This document shows positions 2-64,000 of a stretch of 64,000 nt of DNA, piece after piece. A model generated the notes under the pieces. That model did not search any database, was not told the DNA's origin, and saw nothing but the letters and a program-made list of their open reading frames with translations. Positions within the stretch are counted from its first letter, which is position 1, and each line of letters starts with the position of its first letter. Made by a program: the position numbers and the translations under genes. Source of the DNA: a virus; the IMG/VR virus record IMGVR_UViG_3300045283_000116, positions 20,693 through 84,692 of that record. One strand, given 5' to 3'.

Positions 2-220
2 CTCATCAAGCCGGACGCGGCCTACGTGCCGGGGGACCTGATCGGCTGGGACCCGGCCGGTGCGCGGCCACAGGGCAAGGGGCAGACGAACGGGACGGGT
101 TCGTGGATGCGCGGCGTTGCCGCGGCGAACGCGCTGTTCACCGTCCAGGAGTTCCGGCCGTACAACACGGCGGGGACCGAGGGCGTTCTCACCGTCAGGA
201 GTCTCCGCGGCCAGTTCTAG
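2..220 (+). CDS. C-terminal part of a head (decoration-like) protein
   Basis: This reading frame is open from the first base of the window and ends at the TAG at 218-220, so only about the last 72 residues are seen. The tail of the protein is rich in Gly, Pro and Thr and ends in LRGQF. It sits 33 bases before the major capsid gene. In many siphoviruses that slot holds a scaffold or a head decoration protein. The role is inferred from position only; no family motif was recognised. Confidence 0.55.
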   Translation, partial: LIKPDAAYVPGDLIGWDPAGARPQGKGQTNGTGSWMRGVAAANALFTVQEFRPYNTAGTEGVLTVRSLRGQF

Positions 221-15453: not shown

Positions 15454-16677
15454 ATGGAGCAGACGATCTTCGCCGGACTGTCGACGCTGGAACCGGGCGA
15501 CGCCCTGTACGACAACGGCGCGGCGTTCACGGACCGCAACATCCGCACGATCGACAGCCTGCTCCAGCTCGGGACGGTCACGCACGTCCACGACGCCCAC
15601 GCACCGCTTCCTGCGCCTACCGTCGCACCTTCGGTCGTGGCGAACGCGACGGGCGGCCAGATCCCGGCGAACACCACGGTCTACTTCGGGCTGACCGCGG
15701 TGGATGCCTACGGCGGCGAGACGAACATCGGGCCGCTCGGCAGCGCTGCGACGCCGGGGGGCTTCGGGACGCCGACGATCGCCCCGTCCGCGGTTGCGAG
15801 CTACAGCGGCGGCAACCTGCCGATCGCGCAGTATTACTACGCCGTCACGCTCGCCGACGGGATGGGCGGCGAGACGGAGACCGGGCCGTACACGAGCCTG
15901 TCGCGCGACCCCGGCTACGCCAGCGGCCAGATCATCCTCAGCGGCCTGACGACGATTCTGCACTCGGAGGCGCTGGCGACCGGCTGGCGCGTCTACCGGT
16001 CCGTCAACGGCGGGCAGTTCGCCTTCCTCGCCTCGGGTGCGGCGGGGCAGGACACGGTCACCGACGACGGGAACCTGTGCGCCGACTGCACGCAAGCGCC
16101 GCCCACGGTGAGCACCACCGCCTCGACGGCGTCGATCGCGGTCACCGTGCCTCCGCTGGGCTCCGGGGCGTCCTCGTGGAGGCTGTACGGCGGGGTGTCG
16201 CCACCGTTCGGCTCGCCGTCGCTGGTCGGCACGGGCCTGGGCTCGGGTGGTGTCGGGTTCACCGTGACCACGTTGGGATTCCAGTCGGGATCTCCGCCGC
16301 CGGTCAGCCTGTCGAAGCCGGGCGCGAACAAGATCAACCCGGCGACCGACATGCTCCCCGCGGCGTCGGGTGCGATCACGCTGGGCGCTGGCTGCTCGGC
16401 GTATGGCACCGGCTATGCCGCGCCTCGAGTCTCACGAATGGCGCAGGATCTCCGGGTTCTGGAGGGCGTCGTCGCCGGACCGGGGACGGCCGGGAGCACG
16501 CTGGTGACCCTTGCCCCCGCGGATCGCCCGACTGCAATCCACGCTTTCAGCGTCGCGTCGCTCACTACGCCACGCAGCCAGGTCGGTGTCGACGTGATGC
16601 CGGACGGCCGAGTGGTGCTCGTCAACGCTGCGACCGCGGCCGTGTCCCTCGACGGGATCGCGTTCAGGGTGACGTAG
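15454..16677 (+). CDS. Tail fibre/baseplate protein, paralogue of the collagen fibre N-terminus
   Basis: 407 residues. Its first 45 residues (MEQTIFAGLSTL, then a GDAL...FTDRN pattern and HVHDAH) match the start of the next protein ([23 protein letters not shown]). Both then carry two fibronectin-like repeats of the YYY(A/T)VTL...GGET type. The shared N-terminal block is probably the particle attachment module, so this looks like a short partner fibre arising by duplication. It lies directly against the next start codon. Confidence 0.7.
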   Translation: MEQTIFAGLSTLEPGDALYDNGAAFTDRNIRTIDSLLQLGTVTHVHDAHAPLPAPTVAPSVVANATGGQIPANTTVYFGLTAVDAYGGETNIGPLGSAATPGGFGTPTIAPSAVASYSGGNLPIAQYYYAVTLADGMGGETETGPYTSLSRDPGYASGQIILSGLTTILHSEALATGWRVYRSVNGGQFAFLASGAAGQDTVTDDGNLCADCTQAPPTVSTTASTASIAVTVPPLGSGASSWRLYGGVSPPFGSPSLVGTGLGSGGVGFTVTTLGFQSGSPPPVSLSKPGANKINPATDMLPAASGAITLGAGCSAYGTGYAAPRVSRMAQDLRVLEGVVAGPGTAGSTLVTLAPADRPTAIHAFSVASLTTPRSQVGVDVMPDGRVVLVNAATAAVSLDGIAFRVT

Positions 16678-32637: not shown

Positions 32638-33064
32638 AGATGTTGTCGATCTCGGCCTCGAACTCGCCCATCGTCACCGGGCGACCGAGGCGAAGCGCCT
32701 GCTTGTCGAGGAACTTCCCGACGGCCACGTCCGCGGCGAGCCGACGCTGGACGGAGACGATGTGCGCGCCCTTGATCCGCAGCGTCACCTTGAACTCCTG
32801 GTCCGTGATGTCCGTGTCGACCTTGCGATCCCACGTCGAGTCGCTGGAGAGCATCATGCCCCTCGCCTTGAGACGGGCACGGACCCGGCCGGTGACGAGC
32901 CGAGCGAACTCGGTGAACATCAGCGCGGCAGGGACCGTCGACACCAGATCCCCGGCGACATCCCCGGTCGTGACCGGATGCCCCGCGGCCTCGCGGGCGT
33001 CGATGGACGTGTCGATGGCCTGGGTCAACGGATGACCGGAACGGCGGTAGCGCTTCGACTTCAT
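32618..33064 (-). CDS. Hypothetical protein of leftward cassette
   Basis: 148 residues, ATGA overlap with the upstream HTH gene. It has a basic N-terminus (MKSKRYRRSGHP) and a mixed alpha/beta core (RLKARG, DQEFKVTLRIKGAHIV). No catalytic motif is visible. It might be a partner of the HTH protein. Confidence 0.6.
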   Translation of the reverse strand: MKSKRYRRSGHPLTQAIDTSIDAREAAGHPVTTGDVAGDLVSTVPAALMFTEFARLVTGRVRARLKARGMMLSSDSTWDRKVDTDITDQEFKVTLRIKGAHIVSVQRRLAADVAVGKFLDKQALRLGRPVTMGEFEAEIDNIYARHGF

Positions 33065-33804
33065 GATGCGATCCCTTCGGCTTCGTTCGACGCCTTGGCA
33101 GCCTCGGCGGCATCAAGCTGCTCGAGAAAGAACGAGATCCGCTGACCGCACTGGATCAGCCGCTCGCGTTCCCTGTCGAACTCGCCGAGTTCGGTCAACG
33201 CCATGCGGAACCCGTGGCGCTCGTAGCGCCCGTACGCCTTCTCGATCATGTTGTAGACCGAGTCCAGCGCGGGCTCCATCGTCTCGTTGTGGATCTTGTC
33301 CGCCATCGCGCCCGGACCCATCCCGCCAAGCTGGTGGCTGGCGGCGTCGGGCGGCGGCGGCTTCTCGTTCGCCTTCCTGCGCAGATACGACTCGGTCGAC
33401 GAGGCGATACCCACGTTGTCGAGCGCCTTCTGGCTGGATTCGGCGGTGACCGCCTGCGCGATCTCCGGGTCCTCCATCGCCTGCGCGATTTCAGTCGCAA
33501 CTTCGGCGGGCTTCTCCGCGATCAGCTTCCGGGCTCCGGCCTCGATCTCAGCGGTCGTGGCATGCGACCCGCGGTCCCACGGGATCTTCAAGTCCCCCTG
33601 CGGCACCGGCTCCGCACTTGTGCGTGCGCGCACAAGCTGCTCCACCCATCGTGCGCTCCTATCGAGCCTCCGGGCAATCTCTCGCGTGCTCAGTCCCGGA
33701 TCGTCCTTCTGCGCGGCGACGATCTCGTCCGCCGCCTTGAGGTAGAAGCCGTCGCCCTTGGCGATGTACCCCCTCGCCTTCTCGATGTGATCGACCTTCG
33801 TCAT
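33061..33804 (-). CDS. Helix-turn-helix DNA-binding regulator (ParB/KorB-type HTH)
   Basis: 247 residues; the start at 33804 was chosen for its AGGAGG site. Residues about 39-62 form an HTH: GLSTREIARRLDRSARWVEQL. A long helical region follows, with a Pro-rich break (KPPPPDA) near residue 150. Two CGGTACATCATC boxes lie just upstream, consistent with autoregulation. It is the best candidate in the window for a phage repressor or maintenance factor, but no immunity-repressor family is recognised. Confidence 0.65.
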   Translation of the reverse strand: MTKVDHIEKARGYIAKGDGFYLKAADEIVAAQKDDPGLSTREIARRLDRSARWVEQLVRARTSAEPVPQGDLKIPWDRGSHATTAEIEAGARKLIAEKPAEVATEIAQAMEDPEIAQAVTAESSQKALDNVGIASSTESYLRRKANEKPPPPDAASHQLGGMGPGAMADKIHNETMEPALDSVYNMIEKAYGRYERHGFRMALTELGEFDRERERLIQCGQRISFFLEQLDAAEAAKASNEAEGIAS

Positions 33805-33821
33805 ACGACCTCCTGGTTCGG

Positions 33822-33855
33822 TTCGGTACATCATCCCACGAATCGGTACATCATC
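33822..33855 (-). promoter_or_regulatory. Pair of direct-repeat operator boxes before the HTH gene
   Basis: TTCGGTACATCATC (33822-33835) and ATCGGTACATCATC (33842-33855), 20 bases apart (about two helical turns). They lie 18 bases before the HTH start codon. On the gene's strand they read GATGATGTACCGA. The position suggests operator control of the leftward cassette. Confidence 0.6.
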
Positions 33856-44504: not shown

Positions 44505-45104
44505 ATGGCACCCCTACCGGAGCACATAGACGCTGTGATTGGCCGCTACGAAGGGCTGATCTTCCGTCACGCGACACGCATCGAGCACATCGTGGAGATA
44601 GAGCTTGACGACATTCGCGCGATCTACAGGGTCAAGACGTGGTACGCGCTGGAGCGCTTCGACAGCGGGCGCGGTGGCGGACCGGGATGCGCCCGGTCCA
44701 ACGGAGGATGCCGCTGCGCCCGGTGCCGTTTCGTGTTCATGTGCCTCAAGAACATGGAGAAGGATCTGCTCAAACGGGTCCGGCGTCGCGAGGTGTTGCT
44801 GGAGGACGCGGCCCCCAGCTCGCAACCGCAGTCGCGCGATCGTTTCGAGCAGCGCCACGGACTCTCGGTGTCGCACGACGAGGTCTACGGCGAGGTCGAA
44901 GACGACCTGCTGCTGCCGTCGACGCTCTCGCGCGGGGAGCGTGCGACCGTCCTCGCACTCATCGACGGCGCAACGCAGGCGGACATTCGCCGAGCGGCAG
45001 GCTTGTCCCGCGGCGAGATGGACCGGGTGATGATGGGTATTCGGTTGAAGATGGCTGATTGGAAGCCGTCGAGCACCTACGCGCCCGCCCTCGTCGCCGC
45101 CTGA
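44505..45104 (+). CDS. Sigma-like transcription factor
   Basis: 199 residues. The N-terminal part is helical, like sigma region 2, and is interrupted by a Cys/Gly insert (GCARSNGGCRCARC, about residues 62-75) that may bind metal. The C-terminal 70 residues read as region 4: LPSTLSRGERATVLALIDG, QADIRRAAGLSRGEMDRVM. No ribosome site precedes the ATG. It could direct polymerase to the recurring AGTCGTAG elements, which is a hypothesis only. Confidence 0.6.
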   Translation: MAPLPEHIDAVIGRYEGLIFRHATRIEHIVEIELDDIRAIYRVKTWYALERFDSGRGGGPGCARSNGGCRCARCRFVFMCLKNMEKDLLKRVRRREVLLEDAAPSSQPQSRDRFEQRHGLSVSHDEVYGEVEDDLLLPSTLSRGERATVLALIDGATQADIRRAAGLSRGEMDRVMMGIRLKMADWKPSSTYAPALVAA

Positions 45105-54544: not shown

Positions 54545-54815
54545 CCTTGATTCGTTGCAGCACGCGCTCGGGCGGCTCGCCGTAGTTGGCTTCGAGCGCC
54601 GCGTAGAGCGTGGCGTTCGGGTTGTTGAAGTAGTGCAGGCCCGCGTTCACGAGCAAGTTGAGCGCGTCGACCATGCCCTCGTCGGGCAGGTCGCATTCGA
54701 CGATGATCTCGTCGGCTGCGCGCGTGAATGCCGCGCGCAGCCGGTCGGTGATGGGCGGGAGGTATTCGGTCATGCCGGTCTCGCCGTTGTAGAAGGTGTC
54801 GCGATCGGTGCTCAT
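54528..54815 (-). CDS. Hypothetical helical protein
   Basis: 95 residues, ATGA overlap with the upstream gene. Helical, with repeated Ala/Leu/Asp (LRAAFTRAADEIIVE, ALNLLVNAGLHYF). Function unknown; part of the MoxR-VWA-Ku operon. Confidence 0.6.
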   Translation of the reverse strand: MSTDRDTFYNGETGMTEYLPPITDRLRAAFTRAADEIIVECDLPDEGMVDALNLLVNAGLHYFNNPNATLYAALEANYGEPPERVLQRIKDARHG

Positions 54816-55780
54816 GCGTCCGCGCCCATATCGCCGAGCTTCTCGAGCGCCTCGTCCAACTGCTCGAGGTTCTGGTCGATCTCGTCGCGCGAAATCCCGA
54901 CGAGAGTCTCGAACTGAGCAACCGCACCGGCCAGCTTGCGCCGTTCCAGGTGCAGGTTCGTGAGCAGGTCCGAGCGCACCTTGCCGCCGTTCGCGTTGCG
55001 CAGACGGTTCGTGGCCTTCTCCAGTAGCTCGCGGCTCGTCTCCTGCGCGTTCAGCGCGAAGTGCTTGGCGACCATCTTCTCCGCCTCCTCATCGCGCACG
55101 AGCGGGATGATGTGGAAGTCCGCGCGCTCGCCGTAAAGCTCCGCGAGCGCCGCCTGCATCCCGAGCAGGATCGGTTCGGTCGGCTCGTTCGTGCGCCCGA
55201 CGATGTGCGTGTCGGGCACGAAGTACAGACCGCCAGCCTTGCGTCGCACGTTCTGCGCGCCCAGGTCTTGCAGCATCTCGCGGATCGCGTTGCGGATCTT
55301 CGGACCCGGAACCGTCTTCTGGTTCTTGGCGAAGTGCGCGCGGATGGTGTCCTCGAGCCCGCGAAGCGAGGCGTAATCGCTGTCGAGATCCTTCACGGTG
55401 ATGTCGTCCTGCGCCTTGTCGTACACGAGCGTCATCGACTTCTCGTGTTCGATGAGGCGCGCCTGTTCGTCGCGCACCTTGCGCGTGATCTGGTAGACGA
55501 CCTCGGTCGCGCTCTCCATCACGCGATCGACCGCGACCTCGACGCCCGCGCCGCCGCGCCGCGTCTCCACGGAACGGCAGGCCGACATGAAGATTTCCGC
55601 GCCCTTGCGCGTCTTGGGCAGCACGTTCACGTCGAGTCCGTGGATGCCCCACACGCGCACGAGCTTCGTGGCGCTCTGCGGATCGTCCGGGAGCGTGTAC
55701 GTCGCGAGCCGCCCGAGCAGCTTCATGTCCTTCGCCGCCTTCGCGGATACAGCCTTCGCGCCGCTGAGGTTCGCAGCCAT
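54812..55780 (-). CDS. Conserved actinophage protein of unknown function
   Basis: 322 residues. VWGIHGLDVNVLPKTRKG and FMSACRSVETRRGG form a conserved-looking block I associate, from memory and unverified, with DUF6744 of actinophages. The second half is helical coiled coil. It follows the VWA gene by 13 bases, so it may be a client or partner of the MoxR-VWA machine. Confidence 0.65.
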   Translation of the reverse strand: MAANLSGAKAVSAKAAKDMKLLGRLATYTLPDDPQSATKLVRVWGIHGLDVNVLPKTRKGAEIFMSACRSVETRRGGAGVEVAVDRVMESATEVVYQITRKVRDEQARLIEHEKSMTLVYDKAQDDITVKDLDSDYASLRGLEDTIRAHFAKNQKTVPGPKIRNAIREMLQDLGAQNVRRKAGGLYFVPDTHIVGRTNEPTEPILLGMQAALAELYGERADFHIIPLVRDEEAEKMVAKHFALNAQETSRELLEKATNRLRNANGGKVRSDLLTNLHLERRKLAGAVAQFETLVGISRDEIDQNLEQLDEALEKLGDMGADA

Positions 55781-55793
55781 GTCTAGCCTCCAG

Positions 55794-57428
55794 TTAGGTG
55801 ATGTTCTGCGCGAGCTTCGTGCTCGCATCGTTTGACCCGGCGAGGTCTTGCACGTCGACGACGTACTCGCACATCTGGCCGAGATAGGCGTTGTTCGGGC
55901 ACAGGATCGAGATCCCGTGGATGCGCACGCCGAGTTCGTTCAGCGCGTGCTTGATCGTCTGGTCGGCCTCGCGGAAGTAGTCCTGACCGTCCCCGATGAG
56001 GATGATGTCCGCGGTCTTGAACGCGGGCACGTCGCGCATGATCCGCAACGCTGCGGTCATGCCCGTTCGCGTGCTCGTCCCGCCGCCGAAGAAGTGGCTC
56101 GCGTAGTCGAGCACGACGTTCGGGTCCGCGGGCACGCCCTTCGGGAAGAACCATTCCTTGCACTGGTTCTCGCTACCGAACTCGATGCCCGCGAACTCGC
56201 GCTTCTCGCGCTGCGCGATCGTGAGCAGGCACAGTGCGAGCGAGGACGCCCAGACGAACGGTTCGCCGCCCATCGAGCCCGAGCCGTCCGTCACGCAGAT
56301 GATCGGCCCGCGCCCGGCGGGCATCTTGCCGCTCATGTCGTATTGCAGGACCGCGTTGTCCGCGAAGTCCCTCATGAACGTGGTCTTGATGAGCCGGTTG
56401 TCCGAGAACGCCCGCGCGAGTTCGTGCGGGAGCATCCGACTGAAGTCTCGGCCCGTGGTGATGCCCACGGGCTCGATCGGGACGTTCTTCGTTCGAGCCT
56501 CGCGCTTGAAGCGCATGTCGCGATACAGCCGCCCGAGCATGGCCGCGATCTTCTTGAGGTCACGGTTCTCGCTCCACTTCTCCGCGAGCGCGATCTGCTG
56601 GTCGGGCGTGAGGTTGTGCGACTCGCCGCCGCCGATGCCCGGAATCGAGTGGAGAGCTTCGACTGCCTCCGCGCCCGCCTGAGCGGCGTCGCGCGCGGCT
56701 GCGCTGGCGTCGGCGACCACGCTGCTCGTTCGATGCGCGTGGTCGAGTTCGGCAAGAAGTTCGCTCGCGGTCTGGCGACGCTTGGCGACGCCCTTGATCT
56801 CGCGCTTGGTCTGGTCGGTGACCTGACCCGCGTGGTCGATCTCGGCGCGCGCGCGGTCGCGAAGGTTGTCCATCATGTCCTGCGCGTCGCGCATCTCCTG
56901 TTCGACCTGCTCGGCCTCGTCGGCGCGCGCGACGTGCTCGGCCAGCCGCGTCTGTGCGGACTCCTCGAGCGACTTGCGCATCGCCATCGCCCCAAACAGG
57001 GACTCAAGTTCGTTGTTGCGCGTGTACGGGCGCGACTCCTGAAAGCCCTCGCTGATGAGCGTCTCCGCGAGAATCTCACGGTTGAGCCGGTGGCTCAGGC
57101 GCACGTCGTCCGCGCGGCGAAGCTCGGGTTCGTCGAGCGAGAAGTTCGCACGCGCCACGTCACGCAGAAGCTCGGGGAACGTCGACCAGTGATGGTCGTG
57201 CTGCGTCTTGCGCTCGTTGCCGTGCTCGTCGGTCTCCGTGCGCTCGTAGTGCACGATCGGCGGGTTGCGCGTGGCAGCCTTGAACCGTTCGGTTCGCGCG
57301 GCCGACTCCGCGATGATGTTGTCACGCAGCGGGTCCGCGGTCAGGCCCGACTTGCTGAGTTCCTGCGGCTTGCGCGCCGCGATCAGGGAACGAACCCTGT
57401 TCGCGGCGCGCGTGAAGTCCATGCCCAT
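55794..57428 (-). CDS. VWA-domain protein (CobT/ViaA-like)
   Basis: 544 residues. A long helical, Arg/Glu-rich N-terminal 360 residues precedes a von Willebrand A domain. The MIDAS motif DGSGSM is at about 379, the second loop is GGGTSTRTG, and ILIGDGQDYF is the third metal loop. It is paired with the MoxR ATPase 10 bases upstream, as in RavA-ViaA and CobS-CobT. Together they probably form a chaperone or remodelling machine; the client is unknown. Confidence 0.85.
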   Translation of the reverse strand: MGMDFTRAANRVRSLIAARKPQELSKSGLTADPLRDNIIAESAARTERFKAATRNPPIVHYERTETDEHGNERKTQHDHHWSTFPELLRDVARANFSLDEPELRRADDVRLSHRLNREILAETLISEGFQESRPYTRNNELESLFGAMAMRKSLEESAQTRLAEHVARADEAEQVEQEMRDAQDMMDNLRDRARAEIDHAGQVTDQTKREIKGVAKRRQTASELLAELDHAHRTSSVVADASAAARDAAQAGAEAVEALHSIPGIGGGESHNLTPDQQIALAEKWSENRDLKKIAAMLGRLYRDMRFKREARTKNVPIEPVGITTGRDFSRMLPHELARAFSDNRLIKTTFMRDFADNAVLQYDMSGKMPAGRGPIICVTDGSGSMGGEPFVWASSLALCLLTIAQREKREFAGIEFGSENQCKEWFFPKGVPADPNVVLDYASHFFGGGTSTRTGMTAALRIMRDVPAFKTADIILIGDGQDYFREADQTIKHALNELGVRIHGISILCPNNAYLGQMCEYVVDVQDLAGSNDASTKLAQNIT

Positions 57429-57437
57429 GCGCGCCTC

Positions 57438-58739
57438 CTACGGCTTGTACTTGGTGGGAAGGTCGTTGTCGTAGAACCACTTGCGCACCGACAGCAGTTC
57501 GTTGGACAGTTCGCGCAACGCAGCCGCGTCGCGCTTCTCTGAGTCCGCCTCCGCGAGGATCGCGTCGACGCGCTTGTTCACTTCCTCGATCATGCGCGAG
57601 GCCGCGATCGCCTTCGACAGAACCTCGGAATCGAGATCCTCGTTCGGGGGCGTGCCCTCGATCGTCGGGCGCACTTCCTCGACGGACGCGAACGCCTTGG
57701 CCGCCTCTTGGCGCTTGGCCGTGGCCTCGCGCTCGAAGCGCCCGTGGTACTTGAGCACGAGCTTGTGCGCGAGCGGAATGTCGTCCTGGTCGCGCCACAT
57801 GCCGTGTTCGCAGATGGCGAGGTCTTCGGCGATCGTGTGGTCGCGCCCGCTCATCCATGCGTTCGCACGGCACACGAGCACGAGCTCGACCCAGCGCCGC
57901 GGCGAAACGATCAGGCCCTCGGCCTTGCTCTCGCTGCGCAGGGATGCGGCCGCGTCGAGAAACTCCGGCGACAGTTGGACGTTCGCCACAGCGTCGCGCG
58001 CGGCGACGTACTGGTCGAGCGTGACGGTCTCGCGTGGCGCGGCCGAGCCGGTGCGCACCATCGAACCGTTGTCGATCAGTTCGCCGTTGACGTTCGTCCC
58101 GGCCAGCCGCCGCGCGTGATCGCGCCGCAGCAGTTCCTTGAAACTGTCGTCGCTGCGAATGTCCTCGATCTTGAGCATCACGGTCACGCGATCGCTGATC
58201 GCCTGCGCCTGCGCGTTCTCCGGGTCAAACCACGTGTTCGAGCCGGACACGACGAATTGGATCGGCGTTTTCTTCATGCCGCCGTTGTGCTCGGCCATGC
58301 GCTCCTGCGTGTTCATGAACGACAGGCACGCATCGAGCAGCGGCCCGTTCGCACGCGGAAGCTCGTCGAGGAACACGATGTGCGCGTTCGGCGCGTAATG
58401 CGCGACGTTGCGCTCGAAGTCTCCGGTCTTGGCGAAGTTCGCCATGTCGTACGGGCCGATGACCGCATCCGCGCCGAGCGTGCCGTGCAGGATCTTGCCG
58501 AAGTAGCGCACGTCCGTGATCGACTTCGCGAACTCGGTGAGCGCGAGGGACTTCGCCACGCCCGACTCCCCGATCATGTGCGCGTTGACGCCCGCGAGCG
58601 CGGCGCGTAGGAGCACGCGCATCTCGAGGTCGCGCTCGACCAAGACTTCGGTCGTGATGTAGGTGATGATGCGATCGAAGTCTGCGGGTTCGACCGCGAC
58701 TTGCGCGGGGGCGACGGCCCCGGTGCGCGTGGCAGGCAT
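57438..58739 (-). CDS. MoxR/RavA-family AAA+ ATPase
   Basis: 433 residues. Walker A GESGVAKS (57-64) has the Ala typical of MoxR; Walker B IVFLDELPRAN is at 121-131; VSGSNTWFDPENAQ is sensor I. The C-terminal lid is followed by a helical extension. It is the first gene after a promoter of the right-arm family and heads the operon VWA, unknown, Ku, ligase, RuvB-like. Confidence 0.88.
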   Translation of the reverse strand: MPATRTGAVAPAQVAVEPADFDRIITYITTEVLVERDLEMRVLLRAALAGVNAHMIGESGVAKSLALTEFAKSITDVRYFGKILHGTLGADAVIGPYDMANFAKTGDFERNVAHYAPNAHIVFLDELPRANGPLLDACLSFMNTQERMAEHNGGMKKTPIQFVVSGSNTWFDPENAQAQAISDRVTVMLKIEDIRSDDSFKELLRRDHARRLAGTNVNGELIDNGSMVRTGSAAPRETVTLDQYVAARDAVANVQLSPEFLDAAASLRSESKAEGLIVSPRRWVELVLVCRANAWMSGRDHTIAEDLAICEHGMWRDQDDIPLAHKLVLKYHGRFEREATAKRQEAAKAFASVEEVRPTIEGTPPNEDLDSEVLSKAIAASRMIEEVNKRVDAILAEADSEKRDAAALRELSNELLSVRKWFYDNDLPTKYKP

Positions 58740-58792
58740 TGTTCGGTTCTCCAGACTCTAGTTTGACGTTCGGGTCGGGCGGCCTACAGACC

Positions 58793-58821
58793 AGTATGGG
58801 TCGTCGGCCGCCCCATTCTCA
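58793..58821 (-). promoter_or_regulatory. Right-arm promoter A (before the MoxR gene)
   Basis: On the minus strand TGAGAA, 17 bases, CATACT, with the spacer GC-rich and partly symmetric. Predicted start near 58785, giving a 45-base leader to the ATG at 58739 with GGAGA as ribosome site. The core matches two other copies near 61.9 and 63.3 kb in both boxes and exact spacing. Confidence 0.7.
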
Positions 58822-58863
58822 GTTCTAGGGGAAGGTTTTTCTCGCGCGTGTAAATCCTACGCG

Positions 58864-59094
58864 CTACGTGGTGGGCAGGTGCGGGTCGTCGAGCGCGAGT
58901 TCGCGGTCGCACACGAGGCAGATGAGCACCTGTTCGTCCACGTGCTCGACCGTGCGCGTGTCGTCGTCGTCGACGCCAACCCAGCGCGCCGACTTCATGT
59001 CCCACACGGGCGTTCGTTCGACTTGCGCGCGCGTGCTCACCACGAGTGAGGCTTCGCTCGCGCACGACGGGCAGATGAGGTTCGGTGGGCTCAT
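58864..59094 (-). CDS. Zinc-ribbon protein
   Basis: 76 residues, ATGA overlap with the upstream gene. CPSCASE near the start and CLVCDREL near the end form a rubredoxin-like zinc ribbon around a beta segment. It ends before promoter A. Confidence 0.7.
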   Translation of the reverse strand: MSPPNLICPSCASEASLVVSTRAQVERTPVWDMKSARWVGVDDDDTRTVEHVDEQVLICLVCDRELALDDPHLPTT

Positions 59095-59519
59095 ATGCGC
59101 ACCTTGTTCTCTCGCGTCTGGAACATCACGCGGGCGACCTGTAGCTCACGTGCGTTGCGCGGCTCGAGAAAGCGCCCGTTCGTTGCGGCGTGGAAGTCCG
59201 TGCGCCCGCGGTAGTCGTTGCAGCGCGCGTCCTCGTCGATATCGAACAGTCGCGCGAGCCACCACCCCCACTCCGTCCATGAGGCGGCGTTCGCGTTCGT
59301 GTAGAAGGTGAACCGATCGCTTTGCGTTCCGCCCGGATTGCGGTAGCGCGTGCTCGTTCGAGAGCACAGGCTCACGCGATCCCAGCGGCGCGTGCGCGGC
59401 CCTTCGTAAAGCTCCGCGCTCTCGGCCACGTACACGTCGCAGCCGGGGAAGTCCGCGTTCACGCGATACGCGGCGCGGTCGAGATCGTTGCGGTCGAGAA
59501 TGCGACTCCAGACTTTCAC
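59091..59519 (-). CDS. Hypothetical protein
   Basis: 142 residues. The start sequence encodes VWSRILDRNDLDRAAYRV; the middle is aromatic and Asn-rich (FTFYTNANAASWTEWGWW). No family was recognised. The first codons contain GACTCCAGAC, a partial dispersed motif. Confidence 0.6.
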   Translation of the reverse strand: MKVWSRILDRNDLDRAAYRVNADFPGCDVYVAESAELYEGPRTRRWDRVSLCSRTSTRYRNPGGTQSDRFTFYTNANAASWTEWGWWLARLFDIDEDARCNDYRGRTDFHAATNGRFLEPRNARELQVARVMFQTRENKVRI

Positions 59520-59944
59520 GAGTCCTCCTCGGGCATGTCTTCGATGTCACGCACCTGGCGGCCGGACGCGCGGATGAGGTTCGCAATCACGTCGAGCGTG
59601 TCCGGGGACCACTCCACGCCATCGAGCTCGCGCGCGATGGCATCGAGGCGCTGTTCGTCCGTGGCGTGCGTGTTGACGATCCGCGTTTCGGGCGCAGGCC
59701 AGCCGAGCGCGTCGACGAGTAGGTGCGCGAGCGCCTGCATCGTCGTGGGTGACATGTCGAACGTGAGCGTGAGCGCGGCCTTGCGTTCGCTGCGCCGTTC
59801 GAGATTGCGGAGTGACGCGCGCGAAATCTCGAGCTCGACGCCCGCGATGTCACCCGCCGTCGCCGCGTCCATGTGCGCGCCCTCGGGCACGCTCACGACC
59901 ACGACCGCGGAATCGTTGTTGTTCGCCTTGATGTTCACTTCCAT
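59516..59944 (-). CDS. Hypothetical protein
   Basis: 142 residues; the start at 59944 was chosen because of the upstream GGGAG and a hairpin boundary (the open frame continues further but through a hairpin cluster). The product MEVNIKANNNDSAVVVVSVP has a beta-rich first half and helical, acidic second half. Function unknown. Confidence 0.6.
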   Translation of the reverse strand: MEVNIKANNNDSAVVVVSVPEGAHMDAATAGDIAGVELEISRASLRNLERRSERKAALTLTFDMSPTTMQALAHLLVDALGWPAPETRIVNTHATDEQRLDAIARELDGVEWSPDTLDVIANLIRASGRQVRDIEDMPEEDS

Positions 59945-59983
59945 GATGCGACTCCCGTTCGTTGTTCGTGTGCGAAGACTTGG

Positions 59984-60296
59984 CCCTGCCCGCGCGCTCA
60001 ACGACAAAAGCGCGCGGGCAGGGTTTCGGGCGTGCGTCGCCCTGGCTGGGAAGGCCGTTCGCCACGCGCGCCGGGAGAGTTGCGCGCGTGGCGAGTGAGG
60101 CGAGCGCGGTGACGCGCTCAAGCCTGAAAGCAAAGACTCCCGGCGCACGTTCGTGACGTGCGCCGGGCGTGTTGGAGCGTTCGCTATGACGCGGGCATGT
60201 TCCAGCGCGCCCGCGGGTTCGCTAACGGTGCAATGCAGCCCTCCGTTCGTTGCAGGGTTTTCCCGCCCGCGCTAAGAGCGCGCGCGGGCGGGAAGT
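59984..60296 (-). repeat. Four consecutive perfect hairpins in a 355-base gap
   Basis: The gap 59945-60299 holds no convincing gene. It contains four perfect stems: 60062-60074/60084-60096 (13 bp), 60039-60050... listed by position as 60139-60150/60156-60167 (12 bp), 60059-60071/60082-60094 (13 bp), 59984-59998/60009-60023 (15 bp), and 60262-60274/60284-60296 (13 bp). The first range given above is superseded by the last: the four stems are at 59984, 60059, 60139 and 60262. None has a T tract on the minus strand. Confidence 0.7.
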
Positions 60297-60299
60297 TGG

Positions 60300-60575
60300 T
60301 CAAGCGTGTTCGAGCCTGTCGATGCAGCGCAAGCACTGCGTGTGATCGTGCCCGTACGGTGGCCGTTCGTGGCACGTTTCGCAGCGTGTGCCCGTTCGAC
60401 GGCAGGCGAGCTCGTCGTCGATGCGCGTGGCCTCGCGCTGGTACGCGAGCGCGTTCGCATTGGACCCGCGTTCGGTCCAGAGCGCGTCACGGCAGTTGAG
60501 CGCGGCGATGCGCTCGTAGTGCAGCCAGTCGTTCGACATGGCGCGCAGGTCGCACGGAAGCGAGACGCTCATCAC
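60300..60575 (-). CDS. Small zinc-binding protein
   Basis: 91 residues (Met 1, 2 or 13 may be the start). The C-terminal part CETCHERPPYGHDHTQCLRC is a compact Cys/His zinc site. The N-terminal part is helical. It overlaps the upstream gene by four bases. Confidence 0.6.
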   Translation of the reverse strand: MMSVSLPCDLRAMSNDWLHYERIAALNCRDALWTERGSNANALAYQREATRIDDELACRRTGTRCETCHERPPYGHDHTQCLRCIDRLEHA

Positions 60576-60808
60576 GCGGCCTCAAGCGCGATCTCGCGCG
60601 CGATCTCGGCGAGAACCTGAGACTCCCGTTCGTCGTACGCGTCGATGCATCCGTAGTGCACCGCGTGCACCCACGGGCGCTGTTCGATCGCAACGGACCA
60701 GAAGCCCTCGCGTTCGTTGATCGTCAGCCCGCACTCGGCGCAACCGAGCCCGCGCGAGCGGTACGTCACCTTCGGCGCATCCATCGGATCTCCCATCCGT
60801 TCGAGCAC
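60572..60808 (-). CDS. Small zinc-binding protein
   Basis: 78 residues (start may be at the fifth codon, MGDPMDAP). LGCAECGLTI and HAVHYGCIDAY supply Cys and His ligands; the end is an acidic helix. ATGA overlap downstream. The 214-base gap 60809-61022 beyond its start holds one CCCGCCC/GGGCGGG hairpin near 61000 and no convincing gene. Confidence 0.6.
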   Translation of the reverse strand: MLERMGDPMDAPKVTYRSRGLGCAECGLTINEREGFWSVAIEQRPWVHAVHYGCIDAYDERESQVLAEIAREIALEAA

Positions 60809-61022
60809 GCGTGATTGCGCGCAAGGGGTGAGAGACGACTTACGCGGAGCCTATGGGTCGCTGTTCTGGCACGCGCGCACCGACCGGTCCGTCCGGGTGC
60901 GCCGTTCGCCCGACTTGCGTCGGCACTTGGCTGCGGCTGCGTCTCACGTTCGTTCGCAGTCGCGCAAGCGCGGTCTGCGGAAGCTCGGTGCCCGCCCACG
61001 CTTTCGCGCGGGCGGGCGGGAA

Positions 61023-61196
61023 CTACAGGCGAATGCCTTTCGACCACGCCTCGGTCTCGTACATCGGTGCGGGCGGTGCCGCCTTGCGCGTGTCCGCCCA
61101 ACAGCGGAAGCACATGCCTTCGAGCGGCGCGTGGTTCGCACGCGCGGCGGGCATCAGCGCCGTGCACATGCGGCATGGCACGGTTCGATCGTCCAT
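61023..61196 (-). CDS. 57-residue zinc-knuckle protein
   Basis: ATG at 61196 with GGGAGGTAGGG just before it. CRMCTALMP and CFRCWADTR are two CxxC knuckles. It is a typical tiny phage zinc protein, related in style but not clearly in sequence to its neighbours. Confidence 0.65.
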   Translation of the reverse strand: MDDRTVPCRMCTALMPAARANHAPLEGMCFRCWADTRKAAPPAPMYETEAWSKGIRL

Positions 61197-61516
61197 CCCT
61201 ACCTCCCTGTTCGCCTACAAGTGGCGTTGGAGCGGGAGAGCGCGCGCGTCTCCGCGCCCGGCTCTCCACGCTCCAAGAGCGTTGGAGCGGGAAAGCTCGC
61301 GTGCCCGCTCGCCGTGGTATTGGCGGGCGTACGTGCGAGGCTTTCCAACGCTCCACGTTCGTTCGCAAGGTCGCGCGGTGCGCGGTTCGACTTGCGTAAG
61401 TTCGGTGTCCGTTCGGACACGTGCCGTTCGGACATGCGCCGGGGCGCGGTCGGCACGCGCGGGAGCGCGCCCCCGCCCGCCCGCGTGGGAGCGGGCGGGC
61501 GGGCGGCGCGCCCGTA
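61197..61516. other. Non-coding stretch with inverted repeats
   Basis: No convincing gene in 320 bases. TTGGAGCGGGAGAG (61229) and TTGGAGCGGGAAAG (61283) each have an inverted partner (CTCTCCACGCTCCAA at 61263, CTTTCCAACGCTCC at 61341), so two long imperfect hairpins can form. GTTGGAGCG also occurs at 60171. Confidence 0.5.
61472..61503 (-). terminator. GC hairpin after the leftward gene at 61517
   Basis: CCCGCCCGCCCGC (61472-61484) and GCGGGCGGGCGGG (61491-61503), perfect 13 bp, loop GTGGGA. It lies 13 bases past the stop codon on the minus strand. No T tract. Confidence 0.6.
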
Positions 61517-61846
61517 CTAGCTGGCGGCCGGGGCGGGCGCGGCGGCCGGTGCGGCCGGGGCGGCCGGGGCGGCGGCGGCGGGCTTGGCGGGCTTGGCGGG
61601 CGCGGTGACGATCAGACCGGCGGCGAGCGCGCGGGCGAAGTCAATCACGCGGCCGGTGGGCCGGTAGGACCCGCTCGTGCTCAGTCGGCAAAGCACCGGG
61701 TCGGTCTCGCCTTCCCGCGCGCACACCGCGAGCGTAACGCCGTCTGTCGTGACCGGCTCGCCGCCCGCGACCGGGACCCGCTTGGCGGCGGTGTCCGGGG
61801 CGGCGGTGCTGACTGCGCCGTCTGTCGTCGGCAGGGTGATGCTCAT
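61517..61846 (-). CDS. Small protein with Pro/Ala-rich tail
   Basis: 109 residues, GGAG site, driven by promoter B. The first 75 residues are a small beta domain with two Cys (LAVCAREGETDPVLCRL). The end is a low-complexity PAKPAKPAAAAPAAPAAPA tail like linkers of exported or DNA-binding proteins. Function unknown. Confidence 0.6.
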   Translation of the reverse strand: MSITLPTTDGAVSTAAPDTAAKRVPVAGGEPVTTDGVTLAVCAREGETDPVLCRLSTSGSYRPTGRVIDFARALAAGLIVTAPAKPAKPAAAAPAAPAAPAAAPAPAAS

Positions 61847-61884
61847 GTTGCGACTCCGTTCTGTCGTTGATGTACTTACACCGC

Positions 61885-61913
61885 AGTATGGGCCGACCGG
61901 CCCGCCGTTCTCA
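61885..61913 (-). promoter_or_regulatory. Right-arm promoter B
   Basis: Minus strand TGAGAA, 17 bases, CATACT; the spacer contains the palindrome GGGCCGGTCGGCCC. Start predicted near 61877, 31 bases before the leftward ATG at 61846. It lies in the 86-base divergent gap; the rightward gene at 61933 has AAAGGA but no clear promoter of its own. Confidence 0.75.
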
Positions 61914-61932
61914 CAATTCCAAAGGACCCGAC

Positions 61933-63291
61933 ATGAGCATCAATCTGACTGAAGTCCGCGCCGCCGCTTTCCGCCCGCCCGCCGAGCCGGACGACGTGCG
62001 CATCTTCCGGCCGGTGACGGAGTACCTGCCCGCGCCCCGGCCCGCGACCGGCCGCAGTGTCACCGCGTATCTGGCGGCGGCGGATCGGCACACCGACACC
62101 GACGCGGGAGCTTGGCTCTACCGGGAAGCTCGCGCCGCCGTCGTCGGCATCGCCGCGATGCGCGCCGCGACGGAAGATGAGCGGATGGCGCTCATCGGCG
62201 AAGTGTGCGCCGCCGTCGCCAAGCGCGGGAAGCTCGCGCAGGGTGACGCGGGCCGGTGGTACCTACGCCAGACGGCGCGGGCGATCATGCGCGACTCGCG
62301 GACGTGGCTTGACGCGGCATCCCTGCACCGGACCCGCGCCGCCCGCCGCGATGGCGTCGACGCGGTGACGGTCACGACCCACGGGACCGCGACGGACCTA
62401 GCCGAGTACACCGACCCGATGGCGCACCGCGCCGCCGTCAAGCTCGCGGATGCGGACATCGCGCTCGTGCCCGCGAGTCTGTCACCCGTTGCAGCGCTCG
62501 CGGCCGATGCGCTCGTGCCCGCCGCCGCGAAGTCCCGCGCCGCCAAGCACCGCAACGTAACGGCCCGGCTCGTGCAGTCGCTCGCGGGCATGAGCGGGCT
62601 TGATGTGACCGTCGCGCTAGTCGCGCACGGCGGCGAGTCCGGTCGGTCCCTGAAAGCGGTGCAGGCGATGGCCGACCGGGGCGCGGACCTACTCGCCAGC
62701 ACCGACCCGCTGGCGGTGCTCTACGCCGTCCGTAGCGCCATCCGCGAGCACGGCGGCGGCGATGGCGGGGCGCGCCGCGAGCCGGTGGGTATCGACGCCA
62801 TCCGGGCCGACTGCGCCGGGGCGATCCGGGACCTAATCCGGGAGCGCGGCGGGCGCGACGTGGAAAGCATCCGGACGGAACGGGCACTGCCCACGTGGGC
62901 CGACCGGAAAGTGCCCGCCGACGACATGCCCCGGCCCGCCACCGGCCGATCCGTCGTCGCGTACATCGCCGCCCGCTATGACGCACTGCACCGCGTGCCC
63001 GCCCCGGCTCGTGACCGGGGCATCACCGCCGCCCCGGTGGTCACCCTGCCCGCCAAGCGGGAGCGGGGCACTGCCGACTATCGGCCGGGTCGCTCGCCGC
63101 TACTGCCCGCCACTGCGGCCGGTGCCCCGGTGGGCGGCGAGCGGATGCCCGCGCCCCGCTCATGGCGCGATGGGTCGGCACTGCGCGGATGGGCCGGACC
63201 CGGCCCGGATGCCGCCGCCGTCGCGCTCGCCGCCAAGGTCGCGGCGCGCCGCGCCAAGGATGCCGCCATCGCCGCCGCCAACGGAAAGTGA
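61933..63291 (+). CDS. Large orphan protein with repeated ATGRSV motif
   Basis: 452 residues, ATG after AAAGGAC. Very Ala/Arg-rich and helical. PATGRSVTAYLAAADRH (about 36) and PATGRSVVAYIAARYDA (about 336) are near-repeats, suggesting two copies of a short functional element flanking a helical core. No family was recognised. GACTGAAGTC, a one-mismatch dispersed motif, lies in its first codons. Composition (GCC/CGG-rich codons) differs from the left arm. Confidence 0.75.
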   Translation: MSINLTEVRAAAFRPPAEPDDVRIFRPVTEYLPAPRPATGRSVTAYLAAADRHTDTDAGAWLYREARAAVVGIAAMRAATEDERMALIGEVCAAVAKRGKLAQGDAGRWYLRQTARAIMRDSRTWLDAASLHRTRAARRDGVDAVTVTTHGTATDLAEYTDPMAHRAAVKLADADIALVPASLSPVAALAADALVPAAAKSRAAKHRNVTARLVQSLAGMSGLDVTVALVAHGGESGRSLKAVQAMADRGADLLASTDPLAVLYAVRSAIREHGGGDGGARREPVGIDAIRADCAGAIRDLIRERGGRDVESIRTERALPTWADRKVPADDMPRPATGRSVVAYIAARYDALHRVPAPARDRGITAAPVVTLPAKRERGTADYRPGRSPLLPATAAGAPVGGERMPAPRSWRDGSALRGWAGPGPDAAAVALAAKVAARRAKDAAIAAANGK

Positions 63292-63317
63292 GAACGGGCC
63301 GGGGGACGGCCCATACT
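63289..63317 (+). promoter_or_regulatory. Right-arm promoter C
   Basis: TGAGAA (overlapping the TGA stop of the previous gene), 17 bases, CATACT, with GGGCCG...CGGCCC in the spacer. The downstream ACTGCGATGTAGAG closely matches promoter B. It reads rightward, opposite to A and B, into the small genes at the end of the window. Confidence 0.75.
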
Positions 63318-63347
63318 GCGATGTAGAGACGAGAACGGAACGGACCC

Positions 63348-63372
63348 GATGCCCCGCCAACGGCGGGGCATC
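63348..63372 (+). other. Short perfect hairpin downstream of promoter C
   Basis: GATGCCCCGCC, loop AAC, GGCGGGGCATC: an 11-bp perfect stem about 25 bases after the predicted start of transcript C. It could be a terminator making a very short RNA or a 5' stabiliser for the genes that follow. Confidence 0.55.
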
Positions 63373-63392
63373 GCCGCATCCGACCTAAGCGA

Positions 63393-63590
63393 TTGACACC
63401 TAGCACCGCCGCCCCGGACACCGGGCCGGACACCGGGAGCGACGGAGCATCAGCGACGGCGGGCACTGCGGCGATGCCCCCGGTGGGTCACCGGGTCCGA
63501 TGCCGTTCCGGCTCAGTCAGCACCGCCGCCGTCCGGCCCGGTGATGCCGACGACGGGACGGCGGAACGTATGCCGCACTGCCCCGGTTGA
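63393..63590 (+). CDS. Possible small Cys/Gly/Asp protein
   Basis: 65 residues from a TTG start; Asp/Gly/Thr-rich with two Cys (CRSGSV, PHCPG). No ribosome site is evident. Its TTGACACCT start region is repeated at 63587, so this sequence may instead be a -35-like or operator element. Low support. Confidence 0.25.
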   Translation: MTPSTAAPDTGPDTGSDGASATAGTAAMPPVGHRVRCRSGSVSTAAVRPGDADDGTAERMPHCPG

Positions 63591-63645
63591 CACCTGCCAA
63601 GCACCGACCGACTGCCCGCCGCACTGCGGCGGGCCGGGAGAGAAC

Positions 63646-63849
63646 ATGCCCACCGACGCATCAAACATCCGTCCGGCCCACCGACCCGGCTACATCGGGA
63701 CCGACCGGTACCCCGCGACCGTCCCGGCCGCGTACAACATCGGCCCGCCCACCGACCGGTGGCGCGACCCGGCCGCACCGCCACACATCACCGCCAGCAC
63801 CGCCGACGGACGCGACGCCATCCGCCGCATCCTGAACGGGCGGCGATGA
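63646..63849 (+). CDS. Small hypothetical protein
   Basis: 67 residues, ATG after GGGAGAG. N-terminus Pro/Arg/Tyr-rich (GYIGTDRYPATVPAAY), the end a short helix (GRDAIRRILNGRR). ATGA overlap with the next gene supports both. The GTDRYP motif also occurs in the protein at 46535-46786. Confidence 0.6.
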   Translation: MPTDASNIRPAHRPGYIGTDRYPATVPAAYNIGPPTDRWRDPAAPPHITASTADGRDAIRRILNGRR

Positions 63850-63992
63850 GCGGACACGCGCTCAACCGGGCGCGCCGATGCCGTGCCGACACGGGCCGGA
63901 ACCCGTGCCGACACGGCATCGGGGGGTCCCGCGTGGACCCACCAGACCCGCCCGCCCCCGTTCCCAACGGGCGGCGCGCGCGGCCATCCTGA
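63846..63992 (+). CDS. Small basic hypothetical protein
   Basis: 48 residues, ATGA overlap. Arg/Pro-rich with two Cys (ARRCRAD, NPCRHG). The underlying DNA repeats CCCGTGCCGACACGG, which is itself partly palindromic. It ends 8 bases before the window edge. Confidence 0.5.
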   Translation: MSGHALNRARRCRADTGRNPCRHGIGGSRVDPPDPPAPVPNGRRARPS

Positions 63993-64000
63993 CCCCCACC

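Follow-up and report, generated by a model that had tools for sequence, protein, structure and literature searches.

A 37-bp block that occurs three times in the right arm of this phage genome probably represents three copies of one phage-specific promoter, judging by its sequence and placement, and is distinct from the TCGTAGATTAGG family of the left arm. The window analysed here comprises bases 20693–84692 of an 84,692-base virus record, that is, the last 64 kb of a tailed-phage contig, both sharing the same right end. Its genes include those for a DnaB-like helicase, an integrase, a clamp-loader/RuvB-like protein and a ligase, among others; capsid and collagen-like tail fibre genes, named from their sequences by eye, are also present.

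The first-pass annotation had described TGAGAA, 17 bases and CATACT at three places, and the motif TGAGAA-N17-CATACT is indeed found at 58793–58821 and 61885–61913 on the minus strand and at 63289–63317 on the plus strand, exactly three times in the window. Similar sequence past the second hexamer had likewise been noted, and consists in all three copies of a G, three free bases and TGTA. The shared block extends further than described at that time (TGAGAAyGG...CGrCCCATACTGnnnTGTA) and occupies 58785–58821 (site A, minus strand), 61877–61913 (site B, minus strand) and 63289–63325 (site C, plus strand). Invariant columns amount to 25 of 37 within the block, to only five of 60 upstream and to six of 52 downstream; the flanking values are close to what base composition predicts, which by our own arithmetic is about 8% per column. 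Thus, the block has been kept while its surroundings have not. Since site A lies in DNA of about 65% GC, and sites B and C in DNA of about 75% GC, composition does not account for the match.

A search for further copies over the entire 84,692-base record, as suggested along with the original description, returned none beyond the three. When up to three mismatches were allowed, six extra places appeared, giving nine in total in the window versus a chance mean of 13, so the family has three sharp members and no grey zone. A weight matrix built from the three sites assigned scores of 56–62 to its members and 6.7 to the next place in the record, which is site A read on the opposite strand.

Every copy of the block faces a start codon located 31–53 nt away. 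As had been claimed, sites A and B face left ahead of genes, with ATGs 53 nt and 38 nt downstream, respectively. The first gene after site A (57438–58739, minus strand) encodes a MoxR/RavA-like AAA ATPase (Pfam bpMoxR, 3e-20; PHROG 19600, 3e-37; NCBIfam RavA, 1e-24, which is below the RavA cut-off). It is followed on the same strand by genes for a VWA/ViaA-like protein (55794–57428; PHROG 24053, 5e-36; NCBIfam ViaA, 1.5e-14, below the ViaA cut-off) and a DUF6744 protein (54812–55828; Pfam PF20529, 1e-17). According to a crude gene map, site A stands at the head of a leftward gene run that extends from 58.7 down to 46.4 kb and in which no gap exceeds 54 nt. The gap that harbours the site measures 124 nt and, from 45.2 to 59.5 kb, is larger than any other of the leftward run, whose genes mostly overlap or abut. 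Site B is located between divergent genes. To its left lies a gene for a 109-aa protein (61517–61846, minus strand; codon-position GC 0.73/0.70/0.91) which matched no family in PHROG, Pfam or NCBIfam; to its right, at a distance of 19 nt, is the ATG of a 452-aa ORF (61933–63291, plus strand) for which the same three collections yielded no match either, transposases and recombinases included. No promoter of the 452-aa ORF itself was identified.

Site C had been described as facing right after a gene. Its orientation was confirmed, but 'after' is only part of the picture: the first three bases of the site double as the stop codon (TGA, 63289–63291) of the 452-aa ORF, and the site at the same time precedes, by 31 nt, an ATG at 63349. 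That ATG opens a frame of 15 codons only. The first coding-like frame after site C, a 67-aa ORF about 320 nt further on (63646–63849, plus strand; codon-position GC 0.66/0.66/0.87), had no match in PHROG or Pfam, and the genes to which site C points are weakly supported small ORFs. One point against the promoter reading is that there is no convincing gene close to site C. Outside the block, the DNA downstream of site B and that downstream of site C share little convincing likeness apart from two inverted repeats of 22 nt, one 100% and the other 95% identical, which tie 61789–61820, at the start of the gene next to site B, to 63402–63423 and 63509–63530 beyond site C.

Read as a promoter, the block would present TGAGAAyGG as a −35-like box, CATACTG 17 nt further on as a −10-like box, and TGTA where transcription would be expected to begin. 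Site A would then drive the leftward MoxR–VWA–DUF6744 run and site B the leftward run of small genes that begins with the 109-aa gene, and site C would drive transcription rightward off the end of the contig. The interpretation of the sites as a promoter family, already put forward in the first-pass annotation, is favoured by their intergenic position, by their facing of start codons, by the sharp boundaries of the block and by the low stability of the −10-like box, which ranks among the least stable positions of the window (0.4% for A, 3.1% for B and 1.1% for C). As in a phage-specific promoter family, a single asymmetric block recurs ahead of starts and faces them, the target gene of site C being weak. 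By contrast, the boxes do not correspond to a standard σ70 promoter. In CATACT, a C occupies a position at which T is preferred; TGAGAA makes a poor −35 box. A scan of 54–64 kb for σ70 promoters, defined by at least four of six matches in each hexamer, at least nine of 12 overall and a spacing of 16–18, returned none. We infer that RNA polymerase starts at the blocks and that one factor reads all three, which would be either a host σ factor assisted by a phage activator or a σ-like protein of the phage itself. Co-regulation would follow from this common factor, and the 'co-regulated regulon' proposed earlier, drawn from the sequence identity of the sites, is plausible. If the blocks are promoters, they provide a concrete and testable mark of where transcription starts in a phage lineage that is uncultured, and place the MoxR–VWA operon and the small genes at the right end under one control.

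Between the two boxes, the palindrome GGGCCG...CGGCCC had been taken for an operator. This did not hold up: the arms are 2 nt apart in site B and 5 nt apart in site C, so that the axes of the two sites are offset by 1.5 nt, and the palindrome is absent from site A. A single in-register operator in the spacer is ruled out by this mismatch of register together with the absence from site A. One further occurrence of the two arms is at 63191, within the 452-aa ORF. It is possible, however, that the three sites share a weaker, imperfect 27-bp dyad (AG.A.GG...CC.T.CT), which underlies the rather unlikely alternative that the blocks are operator- or stoperator-like sites at which a dimeric phage regulator controls or blocks nearby promoters that went unrecognised. 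The dyad is centred alike in all three sites, with ten (A), seven (B) and nine (C) of 13 pairs complementary, whereas random places in the 54–64 kb region peak at three, and 627 of 20,000 permutations of the invariant letters (about 0.03) attained as good a dyad. Moreover, the orientation of the sites tracks transcription, as is described for L5 repressor sites (PMC9283540). On the other hand, this dyad is weak and of marginal significance once the axis has been chosen, it leaves out the TGTA and the leading TG, which are found on one side only, there are just three copies, and no repressor gene was identified.

Other explanations of the repeated block fare less well. That the three dyad-like sites, which are crowded into 4.5 kb in mixed orientation near the right end of the contig, serve as a centromere or in replication is highly improbable. 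An HTH protein encoded at 33061–33834 might be imagined as their ligand given its weak ParB-like PHROG match (E 0.06), which stands alongside a weak match to a late activator (PHROG 836, E 1.6e-4); yet all three sites are located at gene starts and face them, which partition sites need not do, and their conservation is asymmetric. Over 38 nt, sites B and C match each other at 82% as an inverted repeat flanking 61915–63287, and could accordingly be viewed as the outward-facing ends of a segment around the 452-aa ORF that moves or inverts. We regard this as barely credible, considering that the third copy lies outside the segment, that spacers vary from copy to copy, that the enclosed ORF had no transposase or recombinase match in PHROG, Pfam or NCBIfam, that no matching short duplication was seen by eye beside the arms and that the rise in GC content begins near 61.4 kb, outside the B/C pair. 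Least credible of all is that the match arose by chance or through the composition of GC-rich DNA. In favour of this one could point to pairwise similarity, which on its own scores close to the maximum of the shuffles (24 for the best real pair, equalled by one of 40 shuffles), and to a scan of all 6-N(10..25)-6 words occurring at least three times in the window minus the tail-fibre gene, which was dropped because its coding repeats otherwise head the list. In this unbiased scan the words of the block came out on top with a score of 10.09, tied with one unrelated word, and the best of 60 shuffles reached 9.95. The margin is slim for two hexamers alone; 13 more invariant columns add to it. Against chance stand the three-way conservation of the block between flanks that are at chance level and the complete lack of exact matches in the shuffled sequences (0 expected in 100 shuffles).

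The left-arm family, from which the right-arm sites had been said to be separate, is real in the form of TCGTAGATTAGG, which the record contains five times without mismatch, always on the plus strand (window positions 1254, 3901 and 27276; record positions 16361 and 18959). Of the seven AGTCGTAG octamers in the window, four do not belong to it. The separation itself stands, as the two families have no boxes in common. With at most two mismatches, TCGTAGATTAGG was found in five of six relative records that had been retrieved via the capsid, one of these being the same virus. In relatives with 64–65% capsid identity a match directly follows the capsid gene. TCGTAGATTAGG is likely to be a late-gene signal. 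Like the right-arm block it is short and repeated and includes a −10-like hexamer (TAGATT); unlike it, it has another sequence, occurs on the plus strand throughout, shows no −35-like partner and recurs in relatives. Because a separate left-arm motif with such a −10-like hexamer exists, family-specific start signals suit the style of this phage.

The motif is of a familiar kind, and control of phage genes by promoters of their own is fairly ordinary. Middle and late promoters of T4-like phages are examples of phage-specific promoter families. The right-arm sites resemble them in that several near-identical boxes deviating from the host consensus precede gene groups in one arm; they differ in sequence, in being only three in number and in that no cognate activator or σ factor was identified. 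The nearest printed repeats among the literature compared are the stoperators of Cluster A mycobacteriophages and the SAS/ESAS elements of Cluster K, and the sequences of neither are enriched here. Cluster A operators and stoperators are asymmetric, 13 bp long and present in more than 20 copies and, like the sites described here, are repeated, intergenic and oriented with transcription (PMC9283540); the present sites, however, are 37 bp long, partly dyadic and three in number. Their orientation agrees with transcription when A, B and C are compared with the gene strands, but a 13-bp consensus in some 20 or more copies was not found, and the L5 13-mer matched the window twice at up to two mismatches versus 2.4 expected by chance. 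Cluster K SAS and ESAS are right-arm repeats tied to gene starts, the ESAS having inverted repeats that are imperfect and separated by a variable spacer (PMC3203893). The likeness lies in the occurrence of right-arm repeats at gene starts; SAS are placed next to start codons, whereas the sites here are 31–53 nt from the ATG, and the SAS sequence GGGATAGGAGCCC had no match at up to two mismatches.

The searches turned up no relative that carries the right arm. No phage record was close to the last 24 kb of the window, and none of the viral contigs emerged as a right-arm relative via the MoxR, VWA, RuvB-like and σ-like proteins or via a two-sequence VWA alignment. Among phage records, the MoxR and VWA proteins had matches of 22–32% identity only, and the σ-like ORF and the DUF6744 protein had none; the 452-aa ORF had no relative among phage and plasmid records. 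A distant MoxR–VWA pair, corresponding to the one that is accompanied here by DUF6744 (54812–58739), is adjacent in Moorella phage MTATph1. Left-arm relatives do exist, one being the same virus (99.99% identity over 15.3 kb) and another about 84% identical. None of their compared stretches matches the right arm, and the exact right-arm motif is absent from all six left-arm relative records, which are without the right arm as far as compared (for one record, 14,300 of 28,751 bases were compared and matrix-scored). The best matrix score among them, 10.9 in the 84% relative, does not mark a convincing site.

Exact-motif scans of viral contigs returned three and two places. The three were rejected as AT-richer, unrelated DNA, presumably coding for NifU-like and resolvase-like proteins; the other two, which were scored only, reached at best 3.6 with a 46-nt matrix. 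In genome contigs, 18 scattered places in unrelated phyla compare with about 15 expected by chance, according to our estimate for 257 Gb. The exact-motif places in these collections are at chance level and, as far as they were read, unrelated. A literature search on the boxes as a promoter brought up no phage paper by title.

By eye, a 199-aa ORF at 44505–45104 is σ-factor-like, with stretches resembling regions 2 and 4. Its Pfam Sigma70_r2 match (E 0.1) is below the cut-off, it had no match in the PDB or NCBIfam, and a single-sequence AlphaFold model has a pLDDT of 53, with a more confident helical stretch at 143–183. Sequence and model together provide support that is too weak to name it. 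In one picture, very unlikely to be correct in full, this ORF would be a divergent phage σ-like factor which reads the three promoters, a regulator acting as a dimer would occupy the 27-bp dyad that extends across the boxes, and both together would constitute a self-contained right-arm switch for the MoxR–VWA chaperone operon.

The right end of the window also stands out in composition. GC content climbs from 0.66 to about 0.75 over 61400–64000. CGTTCG is clustered and strand-biased in 58700–61450, where 26 of its 86 copies in the window fall within 2.75 kb, compared with a single CGAACG. The hexamer ends at the GC boundary; the site block nonetheless occurs on both sides of it. The long gaps between the small leftward genes, for which Rfam gave no match, are rich in hairpins: on the minus strand, 59945–60299 and 61197–61516 fold as strong hairpin runs (z −8.5 and −8.8) and 60809–61022 less strongly (z −2.0), and CGTTCG in 58700–61450 is often located between hairpins or in hairpin loops.
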